From assembly GCF_022179465.1 (NCBI RefSeq), contig NZ_BPQV01000008.1, positions 62,001-126,000 of the forward strand: a stretch of 64,000 nucleotides of DNA, read 5' to 3'. The position numbers and the translations under genes were made by a program. Under the pieces are notes generated by a model. The model was not told where the DNA came from. It saw nothing but the letters and a program-made list of their open reading frames with translations, and did not search any database. Positions 1-45,695 of the stretch are shown piece by piece. The stretch is from Methylobacterium organophilum. GTDB lineage: Bacteria; Pseudomonadota; Alphaproteobacteria; Rhizobiales; Beijerinckiaceae. How positions within the stretch are numbered: the first letter of the stretch is position 1; the number at the start of each line of letters is the position of its first letter.

Positions 1-129
1 GGCGGGGGCCGCCTCCGGCGCGGCCTCGGGGGCGGCTTCCGGCGCCGCGTCCTGGGCGAGGGCCGGCCCGGCGAGGGCGAGGCTCAGGCTCAGCAGGGCG
101 GCGCGGGCGGACAGGAGATGCGACGGCAT
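1..129 (-). CDS. Secreted Ala/Pro/Glu-repeat protein, N-terminal fragment
   Basis: Only the first 43 codons lie in the window; the rest runs off the left edge. The fragment starts at an ATG (complement of 127-129). It has a typical Sec signal: a basic N-terminus (MPSHLLSARAA), a Leu/Ala hydrophobic core, and a GPALAQ cleavage region ending near residue 26. The mature part begins with D and then repeats AAPE at least three times, so the exported protein starts with a low-complexity acidic, proline-rich linker. Nothing visible identifies the family. It is transcribed away from the thiol peroxidase gene, and the two share a 275-bp upstream region. Confidence 0.7.
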   Translation of the reverse strand, partial: MPSHLLSARAALLSLSLALAGPALAQDAAPEAAPEAAPEAAPA

Positions 130-404
130 GCGGGACGGCCTCTCGAGCACGGGATGGTCACGTTTTCCCGCGCCGCCTAGCTCCGCAGGCGCGACGATGC
201 AATCGCACCCTCGACGGTTTTCCCGCTGTTGTGTCCTGTTCGACCGGTCTACTCTGGAATGTCTCCAAGCAATGCCGCCTACTCAGGCTTGCGCAATCCT
301 CCCGGTCCGCAGACAAAGGCCGCTACAACTGAACAATGCACGATCCTGCACTTGCCGATCCTTGGAAGAGCGGCGATGCAGGACGGCCGTGAGAAGGGCC
401 CGAC
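130..404. other. Divergent intergenic region
   Basis: This stretch separates two divergent genes and should hold both promoters. I see no gene in it. One small pattern is a direct repeat TGCAC-N5-TGCAC at 337-351, about 55 bp upstream of the peroxidase start, with one helical turn between copies. No clear sigma70 hexamers were recognised. Confidence 0.4.
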
Positions 405-896
405 ATGCGCGACATCTACGCCTTCGCCCCCCGGGACGCGGCGGGCGAGCCCCATGCCCTCGACCGCTACCGCGGCAAGGTGCTCCTGATCGTCAACACC
501 GCCTCGAAATGCGGCTTCACCCCGCAATACGAGGGGCTGGAGGCCCTGTGGCGGCGCTACGGCGCGGCGGGGCTGGTGGTGCTCGGCCTGCCCTGCAACC
601 AGTTCGGCGCCCAGGAGCCGGGTGATGCGGCGGAGATCGCGCAGTTCTGCTCCCTCACCTACGACGTCACCTTCCCCGTCCTCGCCAAGGTGGCGGTGAA
701 CGGCGACGGGGCCGAGCCGCTCTACGAGCACCTGAAGCGGGAGAAGGCGGGGCTGCTCGGCACCCGGGCGATCAAGTGGAACTTCACCAAGTTCCTGGTC
801 GGCCGCGACGGGACGGTGCTCGCCCGTTTCGGCCCCCGGACGAAGCCCGCCGCGCTCACGGACGCCATCGAGACAGCCCTCGCCGCGCCGGCCTGA
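405..896 (+). CDS. Glutathione peroxidase-family thiol peroxidase
   Basis: A complete 163-residue member of the GPx family, which reduces hydrogen or lipid peroxides in the cytoplasm. The peroxidatic residue is cysteine (Cys36 in NTASKCGFTPQY), not selenocysteine. Gln66 (LPCNQFG) and the Trp125-Asn126 pair (KWNFTKF) complete the catalytic tetrad. Cys82 (FCSLTYDVTFP) sits where the resolving cysteine of thioredoxin-dependent GPx enzymes lies, so thioredoxin is a likelier reductant than glutathione; this is inference from the family. There is no signal peptide. Length is normal for bacterial BsaA/BtuE-type enzymes. An ATG start at 405 follows a GAGAAGG-type ribosome site. It stands alone, with a small secreted-protein gene 76 bp downstream. 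Confidence 0.93.
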   Translation: MRDIYAFAPRDAAGEPHALDRYRGKVLLIVNTASKCGFTPQYEGLEALWRRYGAAGLVVLGLPCNQFGAQEPGDAAEIAQFCSLTYDVTFPVLAKVAVNGDGAEPLYEHLKREKAGLLGTRAIKWNFTKFLVGRDGTVLARFGPRTKPAALTDAIETALAAPA

Positions 897-972
897 GGCC
901 CGGAGGCCCGCCGGAACGGTTCAGCTCGCGCGCTCGTTTGCTTCCGTACGAACGACAGCCAGGAGTTGATCC

Positions 973-1212
973 ATGCGCCTGACGCTTCCCCTTGCCGCGG
1001 CCCTCATGGCCGCGGCTGCCCCGGCGCTCGCCCAGACCACGATCATCGAGCGCGACGAGCCCGCCGTGGTCGTGCGCGATCGCCCCGCCGCGGTGATCGA
1101 GCGCCGCGACGTCGAGGTCCCGCCCCGCGTCGGCGGCTGCGAGCGCACCACCGTGACCCGCGAGAACGACGACGGGGACCGCGAGACGGTCCAGAAGGAG
1201 CGCTGCGACTGA
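973..1212 (+). CDS. Small secreted protein of unknown function
   Basis: A 79-residue protein with a clear Sec signal peptide (MRLTLPLAAALMAAAAPALAQ, cleavage after about residue 21). The mature part is about 58 residues, strongly charged, with alternating Glu/Arg and Val pairs (VVVRD, VIERRDVEV). There are two cysteines, one in GGCERTT and one three residues from the end (ERCD), which could form a disulfide in the periplasm. An AGGAG motif lies 8 bp before the ATG. I do not recognise the family. It resembles short periplasmic proteins common in Methylobacterium genomes. Confidence 0.7.
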   Translation: MRLTLPLAAALMAAAAPALAQTTIIERDEPAVVVRDRPAAVIERRDVEVPPRVGGCERTTVTRENDDGDRETVQKERCD

Positions 1213-1322
1213 GCGCGCATCGCTTTGCCACGCCCATCCTTACCGATGCGCGCGAACCGCCCCCGGGCGCCGCATCGTCCGGACCCATCGCGCCCCGGGC
1301 GGAGCGCCCGCGACGAACGAGC

Positions 1323-1351
1323 TTGAAAACGTTTTCATGCGTTTCTGGTAT
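1323..1351 (+). promoter_or_regulatory. Candidate promoter overlapped by a perfect 14-bp palindrome
   Basis: TTGAAA at 1323-1328 and TGGTAT at 1346-1351 are separated by 17 bp, a plausible sigma70 promoter. The perfect palindrome TGAAAACGTTTTCA covers 1324-1337, on top of the -35 box. Its AAACGTTT core is typical of operators for LacI/GalR-family regulators. Transcription would start near 1358 and end at the terminator at 1473-1503. The regulator is unknown and no LacI-family gene is in the window. Confidence 0.45.
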
Positions 1352-1357
1352 GCCAGG

Positions 1358-1503
1358 TACGCGCGGAACCGGTTTGTGCGGCGCAGCGTGAGGTGGCAGA
1401 AGGTCGTCACCCACCGCCGCGATGGCGTCGCGACGGTGTGCCCTTCATTGGGCGTTTCCTCCCTAGACTTCGGGCCGCTCCTTCGTGGAGCGGCCTCTTT
1501 TAT
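1358..1503 (+). ncRNA. Candidate small RNA with intrinsic terminator
   Basis: There is no convincing protein between 1213 and 1586, yet the stretch has a promoter-like element with an operator palindrome (1323-1351) and a strong rho-independent terminator (1473-1503). The implied transcript is about 145 nt. Just before the terminator it carries a single-stranded UUCCUCCCUAG segment. CCUCCC is complementary to the Shine-Dalgarno sequence, and such motifs are a known feature of alphaproteobacterial trans-acting sRNAs (AbcR-type and CcsR-type). A 58-codon ORF (1337-1513) overlaps it but reads straight through the terminator hairpin. This is inference; no known RNA family was matched. Confidence 0.4.
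1473..1503 (+). terminator. Rho-independent terminator
   Basis: Perfect 9-bp stem GGCCGCTCC (1473-1481) with GGAGCGGCC (1487-1495), loop TTCGT, followed by the T-rich tract TCTTTTAT. It points rightward, while the next gene on the right (1587-2687) is on the other strand. It therefore ends a rightward transcript from the 1213-1470 region or from the small secreted-protein gene. Confidence 0.8.
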
Positions 1504-1586
1504 GTCTGGGTAGCCCCGCCACCGGATCTCCCCCTCTTCTTCTAGGAACGCGCGACCACCGCCGCGTCATCCCGAGACAGGGGCTC

Positions 1587-2687
1587 CTAAGCTTCGAGCC
1601 GGTCCGCCACATCCTCTGCCAGCGAGAGCGAGGCCGTCAGCCCCGGGCTCTCGATGCCGAAGAGATGCACCAGCCCCGTCAGGCCGTGCTCCGCGGGACC
1701 CTCGATCCTGAAATCGGCGGCCGGCGCCTCCGGGCCGGTGAGCTTCGGGCGGATGCCCGCATAATCCGGAACCAGGGCGCCCTCCGGCAGGCCGGGCCAG
1801 TAGCGCCGGATCGCCGCCGCGAAGGAGGCCGCCCGGGCTGGATCGACGGCATAGTCCACCTGCGCCGGATCGACGGTGTCGAGCCATTCCACATCGGGGC
1901 CGAAGCGCATGCGCCCGGCGAGATCGAGGGTGAGATGCGTGCCGAGGCCGCCCACCACCGGCGCCGGATAGATCAGCCGCGAGAAGGCGGGCCTGGCGGC
2001 GCAGCCGAAATAGTTGCCCTTGGCCAGCACCAGGGGCGGCACCCGCTCCTGCGGAAACCCCTCCACCGCCCGGGCCAGGGCCTGCGCGCCGAGCCCGGCG
2101 GCGTTCACCACGGCATCGACGGCGAGCGTCTCCTCCCCGAAGCGCAGGCGCCAACCGGCGCCCTCGGGGCCGAGCCCGTCGATGCGCGTGCGGAGGGCGA
2201 GCACGCCGCCGGCCGCCTCGAGGTCGCCCTGGAGCGCCAGCATCAGGGCATGGCTGTCGACGATGCCGGTCTCCGGCGACTCGAGGGCGGCGACGCAGGC
2301 GAGGTTCGGCTCGCGGGCGCGGGCCTCGGCGCCCGCGATCAGGCGCAGGCCCTCGACGCCGTTGGCGCGGCCCTTCTCCAGGATGGATTCGAGGGTCGCG
2401 ACCTCCGCCTCCCCCGTCGCCACGATGAGCTTGCCGCAGCGGCGATGGGGCACGCCGTGGCTCGCGCAGAAGGCGTAGAGCCGGCGGCGGCCTTCCACGC
2501 AGTGGCGGGCGCGGAGGGAACCGGCGGGGTAGTACATCCCGGCATGGATCACCTCGGAGCTGCGGGAGGAGATGCCGGTGCCGATCGCCTCCGCCGCCTC
2601 GGCCACGATCACCGCATGGCCGCGCCGGGCCAGCGCCCGCCCGACGGCGAGCCCGACCACCCCCGCTCCGACGACCAGAACCTCCAT
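1587..2687 (-). CDS. FAD-dependent oxidoreductase, L-2-hydroxyglutarate oxidase-like
   Basis: A 366-residue protein of the DAO/GlpO flavoprotein fold. It opens directly with the FAD dinucleotide-binding motif (EVLVVGAGVVGLAVGRALA, Gly7-x-Gly9-x-x-Gly12) and an acidic residue at the end of beta-2. The segment SSRSSEVIHAGMYYP (about residues 40-54) is the signature stretch of L-2-hydroxyglutarate dehydrogenases (LhgO/L2HGDH). Near the C-terminus FGIESPGLTASLSLAEDVA is the usual second FAD contact region. The ATG at 2687 was chosen because the Rossmann motif starts at residue 2. A longer reading frame continues upstream but adds only low-complexity sequence. The substrate is probably a 2-hydroxyacid, but the family also includes amino-acid dehydrogenases. 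It is a single gene, convergent with the sRNA region. Confidence 0.85.
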   Translation of the reverse strand: MEVLVVGAGVVGLAVGRALARRGHAVIVAEAAEAIGTGISSRSSEVIHAGMYYPAGSLRARHCVEGRRRLYAFCASHGVPHRRCGKLIVATGEAEVATLESILEKGRANGVEGLRLIAGAEARAREPNLACVAALESPETGIVDSHALMLALQGDLEAAGGVLALRTRIDGLGPEGAGWRLRFGEETLAVDAVVNAAGLGAQALARAVEGFPQERVPPLVLAKGNYFGCAARPAFSRLIYPAPVVGGLGTHLTLDLAGRMRFGPDVEWLDTVDPAQVDYAVDPARAASFAAAIRRYWPGLPEGALVPDYAGIRPKLTGPEAPAADFRIEGPAEHGLTGLVHLFGIESPGLTASLSLAEDVADRLEA

Positions 2688-39862: not shown

Positions 39863-41668
<1,806 letters not shown>

Positions 41669-41816
41669 CGGGGTCTCCGGCGCTGACACGGCGGCCCGTC
41701 CCAGGGGCTGGCGCGGCGCACGGCAGGTCTGAAGGGAACGGTCGGGGGCGGGAGATAGCAGCGGCGGGCAGGCGCGCCAAGGCGCCCCTGCCCCGAGGGA
41801 CCCACAATCAGGGCGT

Positions 41817-44789
41817 TCAGAGCAATACGACGTTCGCCGCGATCTCGGGGGAAGCGGTGGTCGTGAGCTCGTCGAGCACCCGGCAGGCGAGGCCGTGGGC
41901 GACCCGGCAGGCGGAAAGGGCGGCGGCCGCCGAGGCCTCGTCGCCGGCCTGGGCGAGCTGGTCATGGGCCTCGGCCAGGTCGAGGAAGCCGAGCTGGCGG
42001 GCCCCCACGGCGATGGCGGGCGAGCGGGCGCGCAGCATCACCTCGTCGCCCTGGACGAGATCGAGCAGGGTGACGAAGCCGCCGACGAAGCCGCGCACCT
42101 CGCCCGGGTCGAACTGGGTGCAGAGCCGGTCGTAGACGGTGCGGTCGAACACGGCGGGGGGCGCGGGCGCGTCGCTCGCCGCATCGACCAGCATCAGCGA
42201 GGACAGGCTGGCATAGACCGCGGCGCAGAGGGTGTGCCGGTCGAAGGGCTTGGCGACATGGGCGTCCATGCCCGCCTCGCGCAGGGCGCGCACCTGATCG
42301 GGCATGACATTGGCCGTCATGGCGATGATCGGGATCCGCCGGGCCGGATGCTGAAGGGCCCGGATGCGGCGGGTCGCGGTCATGCCGTCCATGCCCGGCA
42401 TCTGCACATCCATCAGGACGAGATCGTAGTTGCGCTGCTGGACCGCAGCGAGGGCGTCGACCCCGTCGGACACCACGTCGACGGCGAAGCCGGCCCGCTC
42501 CAGGATGGCGCGCACGATCTCCTGATTGACGAGATGATCCTCGGCGACGAGCAGCCGCGCCGATCCGGGCCTGCCGGGCGTCGCGGCCTCGACCGGCACG
42601 GGATCCGGCGCCTGGGCCACCACCGGCAGGCCGAGGCTGAAGGCGTAGCGGGAGGCGCCCTTGGCCGCCTCGAGCTGGCCGCCCATCAGGGCGACGAGGC
42701 GGCGGGCGATGGTGACGCCGAGCCCGCCATGATCCTTCGAGACGACCTGGCCGCCGTCGCCGGTCAGGACGAAGGCGAGGCGGCTCTCCCCCCCGGGGCC
42801 GGGCCGATGCTGCACCGAGAGGGTGACGAGGCCGCCCCGGCGCGCCCGCACCATCGCGGTCAGAAGGCTCCGGAGGATCTGGTTCAGGCGGCGCTCGTCC
42901 CCCATCACGAGGGGCGGCAGGCGGTCCGCGCCGTTGAGGCCGAGGCTGACGCCCTTGCGCGCCGCCATGCCGCGCACCTGGGCGACGACGTGATCGAGCA
43001 TGCGGGCCAGGGCGAAGGGCATCGGGTCGAGCTGGATGTCGCCGGCCTCGACCCGGGCGAAATCGAGGATGTCGTCCACGGCCGCCTGCATCGCGGCGGC
43101 GGCCTCGGCGACGAAGCCGACATAGCGGCGCTGCTCGGAGGACAGGGGCTCGGATTCCGCCAGAAGCTCGCCGATGCCGGAGATCGTGGCCAGGGGCGTC
43201 CGGATCTCCTGGCTCACCACGGCCAGGAAATCCGTCTTCGCGCGGCTCGCATTCTCGGCCTTGGCCTGGGCGAGTTCGGCGGTGTCCCGCGCGATGCGCA
43301 GGGCCTCGGCCTGCTCCTGCCGCTCCGTGACGTCGCGCAGGACCGAGACGATGTTCGGCGGCGCGCCGTCCGTGGTGGCGACGAGGCTGCTGGCGCATTC
43401 CACCCAGATCCAGCGGCCGTCCTTCCGCTTGGCGCGGAACAGCGTGGTCACGCAGGGCCGCGCCGGCGAGAGCGTCAGGTCGCCGCCCCGGATCTCGGCG
43501 AGATCGTCGGGATGGATCACCTCCTCGAGCGGCATCGTGCGGGCGTAATCCGGATGGAAGCCGAAGACGCGCTCGCAGGAGGGCGAGACGTAGCCGATCT
43601 CCAAGGCGCCCTGCTGCCGCAGGACGATGACGTCGGCCAGGTTCTCCGCGAGCACCTCGTAGCGGAGCCGGCTCGCCTCCACCTCCCGGGTCCGCTCGGC
43701 GACGCGCTCCTCCAGGGTCGCGTGCGCGGCGGCGATCGCCCGGCGTTGCTCCTCGAGAAGCTGCGAGGCATCGACCAGGGCGCGCCCGACCGCGTTCGAT
43801 TCCGAAAGGTAGAGGGGCGGAAGCTCGACCTTCTCGCCGCGTCCGATCGCCCGGGCCGCCGCCACCAGGGCCTCCGCGCCCGCCGTAATCCGGCGCGCCC
43901 AGCGCCACGCGATCCCGCCGCCGATCCCGCACAGGACGAAACCGAGCCCCAGGAAGAGAAACATCGAATCGCTGAGGGGCTTCTCGAGGGCCGCACGGTC
44001 GACGCCGGTGAGGATCGTCCAGCCCGACAGGTCGGACTTCACCTGATAGCCCACGACGCCGTCGCCGAAGGGAGAGAGGGAGGCGACCGGCTCGCGGGCG
44101 ACATCCTCCGCCGCGAGCTTCGTCTGCTCGATCCAGGCCTCGGCGATCCGCGCACCGGGCGTCATCGCGATGACGTGCCCCTCGCCGTCGAGGATAGCCG
44201 CCGAGAACGGCTCGGCGATGCCCTGGCGGTCGAGGAGATGCTCGAGATGCTCGAGCCGCCGGGTGACGGAGAGGTAGCTCCGAACCACCCCGTCCCGCAC
44301 GACAGGCACGTTGACGCCGATGATCCGCCGGCCGGACAGCGCGCTGATCAGCAGCCCGGACACCACGGGCTTTCCGTCAGGTCGAAGGCTCGCCTCGAGC
44401 TTGGGCCGCGCCACGACGGGCATGGGCTCGCCGGGAGGGACGCGCGTGTTGACGAGCTGGCGGCCGCCCAGCTCCGTCAGGGTGATCGTGTCGGCACCGC
44501 TCTCGATCAGCGTCAGGAAGCGGGCATGGAGCTCGGCGAAGTCGCGCCGATCGATCGCCGGAGAATGGGCGAGCGCCCGGGCGACGCCCGCCAGTTCCGC
44601 GAGATCGCGCTCGATCGCCTCCCTGAGGCGCTCGCCGGCCATGTGCACGACCGTGCCGAGCCGCGCGCGCTCGCTCTCGACATACCAGCGCGTCGCGACC
44701 GCGGTCATCAGCACGAGCGGCAGGACGAGCGCCAGGGCGAATTTCGCGAAGGATGCGACGAGGGACCTGCCCCGCTTCACACCTGCCAT
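41817..44789 (-). CDS. Hybrid histidine kinase-like protein with degenerate kinase and HPt domains
   Basis: A 990-residue membrane protein (from the ATG at 44789; an ATG at 44855 would add 22). Order: TM1 (about 14-32), large periplasmic sensor of PDC/Cache type, TM2 (about 293-313), linker coiled coil, PAS with PAC (about 375-500), kinase-like region, receiver, HPt-like end. In the HisKA H-box the histidine is replaced: [16 protein letters not shown], Gln527. The ATPase region lacks the N-box Asn ([17 protein letters not shown]), and its G1 is LTGDGGQVV, not DTGxG. The receiver is intact (AEDHLVN, phospho-acceptor Asp794 in [17 protein letters not shown]). In the C-terminal HPt-like domain the expected His is Leu. 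So it probably cannot autophosphorylate and may act as a signal-controlled receiver or phosphate sink. Confidence 0.88.
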
Positions 44790-44885
44790 GATCCCGAAAC
44801 CCGCCGCCCCTGACCCCTGGAAGACACGCCGTTCTAATCCGGCAGAGGTTTCCAATGGGTAGCGGGCGGCCCTGCGGGCGGCGGA

Positions 44886-45695
44886 CTATCCACCCCGCGC
44901 CGCTGCGGCCATCGCCACCAGGATACGGCGCAGACCACCCATATCCGAGACGGGCTCGGGATAGGTCACGCGCGCACTCCGCTCGCCCGAGACGAGGTCG
45001 AGCCCCTCCGGGTCGAGCCCGGTCAGCGTCCAGGCCGCGCCCGCCTCCCCCTGCCCCGCCGCGTAGAGGGCGAGGGCATCGGCGTGGTCCGCGTTCATGT
45101 GGGCGACGGCGCCGCGCTCGCCCGCGACGAGCCCTTCCGCGCCGGTGAGATCCAGGAGGAGTTCCTCCGGCTTCAGGGTCGCCGCCTTGGCGAAGCCGCC
45201 GTTGAGATGGCCGGCGGACGGCCTCAGGGCGAAGAAGCCGAAATCGGGGAAGTCCGCGTAGAGGGCGGCCTTGGGATGGCGGGCAAGGAAGCGCTCCCGG
45301 GCCCGCGGCTCGGCGACGGGCTCGGCCCGGCCCGTCACCGTCAGGCGCGGATGGGCCAGGGGATCGCCCTTGCCGCCGGCGGAGAAGAGCAGCGAGGCGC
45401 GCGGATCCTTCAACAGGTTTCGCGTATGCGCCGAGAGCCGGGAGAGCAGCAGCAGCGGCGTGCCGTCGACATCGGTCGCGATGGTCACGAGCGAGGCGAA
45501 GGGCGTGCCGTCCGCAGCATCGAGGGTGGCGAGGGCGCCGGAGCGCACGCTGCGCAGCAGCCTGCGGGCGAGGCCGACCGCGTCGAAGGGTGCCTGCGCT
45601 GCGGGAAACGGCTCCGCCGGCCCCCTCGCCGGCGGCCCGGCGGGGACCTCCGCGGCCGTCGCCGGCCCCGCCGCATCGGCGTTCTCGTCCTGCAT
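44886..45695 (-). CDS. HugZ-like pyridoxamine-phosphate-oxidase fold protein with DUF2470 domain
   Basis: A 269-residue cytoplasmic protein. After a ~40-residue Ala/Pro-rich lead, the split-barrel flavin-reductase-like domain begins GLARRLLRSVRSGALATLDAADGTPFASLVTIATDVDGTPLLLLSRLSAHTRNLLKDPRASLLF. The C-terminal DUF2470 part has GAVAHMNADHADALALYA, with the conserved HMNxDHxDAL. This two-domain form is found in HugZ-type heme-handling proteins (heme degradation) and in plant and bacterial relatives of unknown role. ATG at 45695; the frame continues upstream without coding character. It diverges from chvI across a 306-bp gap (45696-46001) in which no gene or clear operator is visible. Confidence 0.85.
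   Translation of the reverse strand: MQDENADAAGPATAAEVPAGPPARGPAEPFPAAQAPFDAVGLARRLLRSVRSGALATLDAADGTPFASLVTIATDVDGTPLLLLSRLSAHTRNLLKDPRASLLFSAGGKGDPLAHPRLTVTGRAEPVAEPRARERFLARHPKAALYADFPDFGFFALRPSAGHLNGGFAKAATLKPEELLLDLTGAEGLVAGERGAVAHMNADHADALALYAAGQGEAGAAWTLTGLDPEGLDLVSGERSARVTYPEPVSDMGGLRRILVAMAAAARGG

Follow-up and report, generated by a model that had tools for sequence, protein, structure and literature searches.

A degenerate hybrid histidine kinase upstream of lepA in Methylobacterium organophilum, a candidate RetS-like modulatory pseudokinase

The 64-kb stretch of Methylobacterium organophilum DNA analyzed here (the window) contains, upstream of lepA, a gene for a predicted membrane-bound hybrid histidine kinase of 990 residues (positions 41817 to 44789, complementary strand) that has lost the catalytic part of its transmitter and kept its receiver domain. 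The ATP site and the phosphorylatable His of the C-terminal tail are degenerate across a family of orthologues, and the H-box His is missing from the window protein alone. The protein probably tunes the signaling of other kinases and does not start its own. At roughly even odds (about 0.5), it is a modulatory pseudokinase resembling RetS, whose receiver would take phosphate from a partner kinase and whose dimerization (DHp) domain may pair with that partner or act in its dephosphorylation.

Catalytic residues lost and kept

Three sets of catalytic residues are affected in the window protein. At the H-box, the phospho-accepting His is replaced by Gln527. In the catalytic and ATP-binding (CA) domain, Ala occupies the N-box Asn position (residue 645), and the Asp of the G1 motif DTGxG, the F-box, and the ATP lid are absent; a TGxG-like remnant of G1 (LTGDG) and the GLG of G2 persist. 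The CA domain matches HATPase_c with 22.2 bits, under the Pfam cut-off of 26.4 bits. In the C-terminal helical domain, which resembles a histidine phosphotransfer (HPt) domain, the column that holds His in all nine of the related hybrid kinases bearing this tail (11 were aligned) holds Pro924. Thus, among the features of an active hybrid kinase, the H-box His and the CA motifs are absent, and the receiver retains its acidic pair (E750 and D751), phospho-acceptor Asp (D794), Thr/Ser (T825), and Lys (K847).

An earlier note on this DNA had reported Gln527, the loss of the N-box Asn, an uninterrupted frame, and an intact receiver, and all four hold, the Gln codon and residue having been verified. 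Its statement that DTGxG is gone is right for the Asp but overlooks the TGxG-like remnant, and the Leu that it placed at the phospho-His position of the tail is in fact Pro, although the His is indeed missing.

The open frame by itself is weak evidence in DNA of 71.5% GC, and 972 codons are also open on the opposite strand at this place. The composition of the kinase frame is coding-like, with GC at the three codon positions of 0.756, 0.483, and 0.923. Hydropathy shows two hydrophobic peaks, predicted to be transmembrane segments (Table 1). Structure comparison of the protein is dominated by the receiver and is uninformative on the CA domain or the tail.

Table 1. Positions in the window of the kinase gene, its domains and key residues, and its neighbors
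Feature	Position	Strand	Remarks
Degenerate hybrid histidine kinase gene	41817..44789	-	One open frame, 990 aa plus stop
Transmembrane segment 1, predicted (about residues 8-37)	44679..44768	-	Hydropathy
dCache_1-like extracytoplasmic sensor, weak (residues 55-227)	44109..44627	-	31.5 bits, below cut-off of 45
Transmembrane segment 2, predicted (about residues 271-296)	43902..43979	-	Hydropathy
PAS domain (residues 400-483)	43341..43592	-	PF08447, 39.3 bits
HisKA/DHp domain (residues 517-583)	43041..43241	-	PF00512, 57.4 bits
Gln527, codon CAG, at H-box His position	43209..43211	-	His in 16/16 orthologues
Thr531, H+4 of HExxT phosphatase motif	43197..43199	-	Thr in 16/16 orthologues
Degenerate CA domain (residues 590-730)	42600..43022	-	N-box Asn, G1 Asp, F-box, and ATP lid absent; TGxG-like and GLG remnants
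Receiver domain, intact (residues 747-858)	42216..42551	-	PF00072, 100 bits
Asp794, receiver phospho-acceptor position	42408..42410	-	Alignment with orthologues
C-terminal HPt-like helical domain without His (residues 880-990)	41820..42152	-	Alignment with related kinases
Pro924 at HPt His position	42018..42020	-	Alignment column
lepA, conserved downstream neighbor	39863..41668	-	
PNPOx/DUF2470 gene, upstream neighbor, same strand	44886..45689	-	

Five intact hybrid kinases of the same genus (loci L002, L014, L049, L050, and L051) are 35 to 40% identical to the window protein and share its PAS/HisKA/CA/REC order. Unlike it, they retain the His, the N-box, DTGxG, and the lid. Only L002 has a tail, with His; the other four show none in the alignment and lie far from lepA.

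Within its genome, the window protein is not alone in having lost the H-box His. Among its 46 HisKA places, 40 of them above the curated cut-off, 43 have the His; a pattern flagged 10 places, 7 of which proved by eye to have it. Besides the window protein, the His is missing from two places. Locus L142 (contig C13, positions 61 to 2178, forward strand) encodes a second kinase with Gln for His, which is PdhS-like (304.7 bits, under the cut-off of 2000) and has an intact N-box and G1. Its 23 relatives, whose orthology is putative, have at the H-box 16 His, 4 Arg, 1 Gln, 1 Leu, and 1 Gly, so that the His seems to have been lost repeatedly in this group. Locus L134 (contig C11, positions 1501 to 1704, complementary strand) is a HisKA domain whose His is replaced by Tyr (SYELRSPL), the substitution also seen in DivL of Caulobacter.

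Orthologues, order of losses, and constraint

A scan of 112 Methylobacterium and Methylorubrum genomes (E values up to 1e-110, seven candidates scored per genome) finds the gene in 17 of them, the window included, with matches at E < 1e-130. Four further matches, at 4e-118 to 1.1e-113, have intact motifs and lie far from lepA. In 15 of the 16 orthologue flanks, lepA lies downstream of the kinase gene with the same orientation; in the remaining genome (G135), the gene is cut off by the end of its contig, and a separate contig carries a 3' part beside lepA. This shared position rules out that the orthologues are mere paralogues. In two of them (G098 and G108), the good match begins only at about residue 353 to 379, so their sensor part is replaced or missing; the loci concerned are L066 and L067.

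Residue 527 is His in all 16 orthologues, and E528, T531, and P532 are conserved in all 17 proteins. The ATP site tells a different story from residue 527. Position 645 is D in nine orthologues, V in four, and A in three. DTG of G1 is found in none of the 15 that reach this region, 5 of which have a TGxG-like remnant and all of which have GLG. HATPase_c scores are 21.5 to 41.8 bits in the six orthologues tested versus 107 to 114 bits in four intact paralogues. The tail His is missing in all 15 orthologues that reach the tail. The receiver residues E750, D751, D794, and K847 are present in all 15 that reach the receiver, with T (eight) or S (seven) at position 825.

Since DTG and the tail His are absent from all 15, the ATP-site and tail losses most simply predate the split of these lineages. 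The loss of His527 would then be later, in the window lineage, when the ATP site had already degenerated, and is so far private to the window. The earlier note had named orthologues that keep His, which would make the change recent or a sequencing error, as a refutation of its reading, and at this residue all 16 do keep it. Its claim of a retained protein that cannot phosphorylate itself and acts through its receiver or a partner fares better: the losses shared by the orthologues, and the constraint described below, are in keeping with such a protein, but the losses did not come about in one event. What had been taken for one dead kinase is a family with a degenerate ATP site plus one further loss. 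Selection for the His loss itself cannot be demonstrated from one genome.

The ratio of nonsynonymous to synonymous divergence (dN/dS), a measurement proposed in the earlier note, is 0.26 to 0.47 overall in ten orthologue pairs with synonymous divergence (dS) of 0.10 to 0.78. By domain, it is 0 to 0.27 for DHp, 0.25 to 0.65 for CA, and 0.15 to 0.56 for the receiver (nine pairs). For lepA, it is 0.02 to 0.08 in nine of the ten pairs. The kinase values are below 0.5 but above those of lepA, and the family is therefore constrained yet fast. Because the ATP-site and tail-His losses are common to the orthologues and dN/dS stays below 0.5 in the ten pairs, a recent wholesale pseudogene is rejected as a full account.

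The window lineage has its own pattern. Against three orthologues, the window gene has dN/dS of 0.53 to 0.70 at dS of 0.7 to 0.8, near saturation. It changes 29 of the 169 columns that are invariant in the others and differs from the majority at 437 of the 772 variable ones. At columns fixed in seven relatives, the counts of window-only versus G076-only changes are 43:31 in the sensor, 14:12 in PAS, 10:4 in DHp, 16:5 in CA, 4:8 in the receiver, and 13:5 in the tail. This suggests that the transmitter has sped up in the window lineage while the receiver has been held.

A modulatory role and its alternatives

Precedents for such pseudokinases exist: RetS, DivL, and CCNA_03265, the first two being the well-studied two-component pseudokinases found in print. 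No description of the present family was found in the literature searched; the available part of PMC9239204 has nothing on degenerate kinases. According to the available portion of its description, RetS of Pseudomonas aeruginosa does not autophosphorylate, its receiver takes phosphate from the partner's His, its H-box Thr serves as a phosphatase residue, and its core inhibits the partner; the receiver Asp is essential for swarming and has a major part in biofilm control (PMC5992135). On the same portion of text, RetS and the window protein are alike in being membrane hybrid kinases with a degenerate HATPase domain and a retained receiver and H-box Thr (PMC5992135). As far as this account goes, RetS has the motif HExxT, as do all 16 orthologues, and the window protein has QExxT. 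RetS has a 7TMR-type sensor, and that of the window protein is a weak dCache_1 match. From what is available of its description, RetS also carries two receivers, against one in the window protein, which further differs in its HPt-like tail lacking His, in its sensor, and in having no known GacS-like partner. The degenerate HATPase domain lacking G-boxes that is typical of RetS is seen here as well, though TGxG-like and GLG remnants stay. The window protein is not assigned to the RetS family, because the H-box and the architecture differ. RetS and DivL both appear among the solved structures that it matches, but an intact paralogue matches them too, and these hits were dropped as an argument for membership in either family.

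The old and stepwise catalytic loss in the relatives makes it probable that the protein adjusts signaling by other kinases. By likeness to RetS, the membrane sensor and PAS domain would feed the DHp dimerization domain, and no phosphorelay would start from the window protein because its ATPase module is without the residues for ATP binding and use. Asp794 would instead be phosphorylated by the His of a partner kinase or by an HPt protein, and hydrolysis of this phosphate would lower or reroute the partner's signal. The DHp domain may pair with that of the partner, and the conserved Thr531 may serve dephosphorylation of the partner's receiver. The 16 orthologues could still use their H-box His to carry partner phosphate or in the phosphatase, a role that would have been dropped in the window protein. 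A protein that, like RetS, relies on its receiver could do without its own His, as is seen here. A more specific version, offered tentatively, is that of a membrane receptor pared down to a receiver mounted on a switchable scaffold: a genus-level family would first have lost its ATPase and tail His and persisted as a modulator that takes phosphate and still has a use for its H-box His, which one lineage then shed, leaving signal-gated phosphate acceptance, and perhaps a His-independent phosphatase, as its only chemistry.

Several observations weigh against a RetS-like modulator. The gene is optional, being absent from 95 of the 112 genus genomes, and its neighborhood showed no conserved partner gene. 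The tail is kept without its His, for which a modulator offers no account. Five of the six orthologues tested pass the Pfam cut-off for HATPase_c, which indicates a retained fold and leaves room for unusual ATP binding. DHp has a lower dN/dS than the receiver in eight of nine pairs and is the tighter domain. The contrast between DHp plus CA and the receiver (p of 0.016 for window versus G076, and 0.024, 0.081, 0.066, 0.046, and 0.019 with five other relatives) is below 0.05 in four of six comparisons that use small counts, were pooled after the domains had been seen, and share the window and the outgroup and hence are not independent. Finally, the window end branch is long in the kinase trees (0.67 to 0.71).

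The constraint on DHp fits a conformational device in the manner of DivL, whose DHp domain, with Gln for His, would bind a regulator or partner kinase and signal by shape, the receiver being regulatory only. DHp has the lowest dN/dS of all domains in 6 of the 10 pairs, E528, T531, and P532 are invariant, and the same genome holds the Tyr-bearing HisKA domain of L134. In the available part of its description, DivL of Caulobacter has Tyr at the H-box (Ala in one homologue), has a CA domain that is dispensable, and reads DivK~P (PMC4211667). Like the window protein, DivL is an alphaproteobacterial protein with a replaced H-box His, and it works without kinase activity (PMC4211667, in part). However, DivL appears from that text to keep the N, G1, F, and G2 boxes along with its Tyr, whereas the window protein has Gln and has lost most of these motifs, and the available description mentions no receiver, which the window protein has (PMC4211667). 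A pure shape device would have no need of the His that all 16 orthologues retain, and the receiver is the best-kept domain in the window lineage, so we consider this explanation doubtful. That His, conserved despite a degenerate ATP site in the 15 orthologues that reach it, might instead receive phosphate in trans from an active partner, within a mixed dimer, and hand it on to its own receiver, a step that the window copy would have lost, leaving the receiver alone in use. For CCNA_03265 (CC_3162) of Caulobacter, a hybrid kinase described as missing the conserved His and keeping the receiver Asp, and likened here by description only, the available text suggests phosphorylation by an HPt protein or in a mixed dimer as one possibility and also allows that a nearby His is the active one (PMC11481889). 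With no partner known, and with the His belonging also to the HExxT phosphatase motif, which gives its conservation another explanation, phosphorylation in trans seems quite improbable.

The long branch and the elevated dN/dS of the window gene could also mean that a functional, His-bearing family is decaying in this lineage and that Gln527 is one of many tolerated changes. The changes at otherwise invariant columns, which include L640R and N641S in the N-box, and the many genomes without the gene agree with this. On the other side, 990 codons are free of stops and frameshifts and coding-like in composition, changes are far scarcer at invariant columns than at variable ones, and the receiver is not accelerated; these counterpoints span the whole branch, from which the time since the His loss is not separable. 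Decay is unlikely on balance. A sequencing or assembly error at Gln527 is very improbable: a single base would suffice and one genome of the lineage has been seen, but the residue is accompanied by 28 other changes at otherwise invariant columns, completeness of the genome is rated at 100% and contamination at 0.09%, and the loss of the ATP site is independent of it.

Gene history and the use of the family

In a careful kinase tree, the window, G076 (haplocladii), and the Methylorubrum group are unresolved at the base; a quick tree joins them at 89. Grouping of the window with G085 and G135 is rejected (approximately unbiased test, p of 5e-9; the window branch is long). In a ChvG tree of 48 genomes, the window forms a separate lineage in one set with G076 and the Methylorubrum group (18 rows, 98*). 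This separate placement is compatible with the kinase tree, so no recent transfer of the window copy is needed. The lepA tree, unlike the ChvG and kinase trees, pairs the window with G085, which might reflect recombination.

The stretch upstream of lepA was inspected in 39 of the 95 noncarriers, mostly chosen for a near lepA sequence, and the gene was found in none; kinase matches there are in the receiver range and lie over response regulators. In the ChvG tree, genomes without the gene are scattered between those that have it, a pattern suggestive of an old gene with several losses, although the gene may instead have been transferred into this site. The stretch between lepA and the PNPOx/DUF2470 gene, presumably HugZ-like (window positions 41669 to 45689), varies across the genus. 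It may be short or hold this gene, another two-component pair (5 of the 39 noncarriers; L106, L108, L109, L113, and L116), or unidentified DNA (e.g., L104 and L105, in the comparison of L104 to L109, L113, and L116). In three carriers (L060, L062, and L063), an extra 1.2 to 1.5 kb separates the kinase gene from lepA.

The search beyond the genus covered 298 genomes of the taxonomic family, drawn from a larger group with 2 candidates scored in each, and 24 of the same order. Two sensor-part matches were inspected. One, in G313, is an intact kinase with His, DTGIG, a receiver, and the tail His; the other, in G055, is a 764-aa kinase with the N-box Asn and without a receiver match.

With 16 members that have the H-box His and one that does not, all against a background of degenerate ATP sites, this family forms a natural series in which the functional part of a dead hybrid kinase can be sought. 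Should the Gln527 form prove functional, its task does not require the His.
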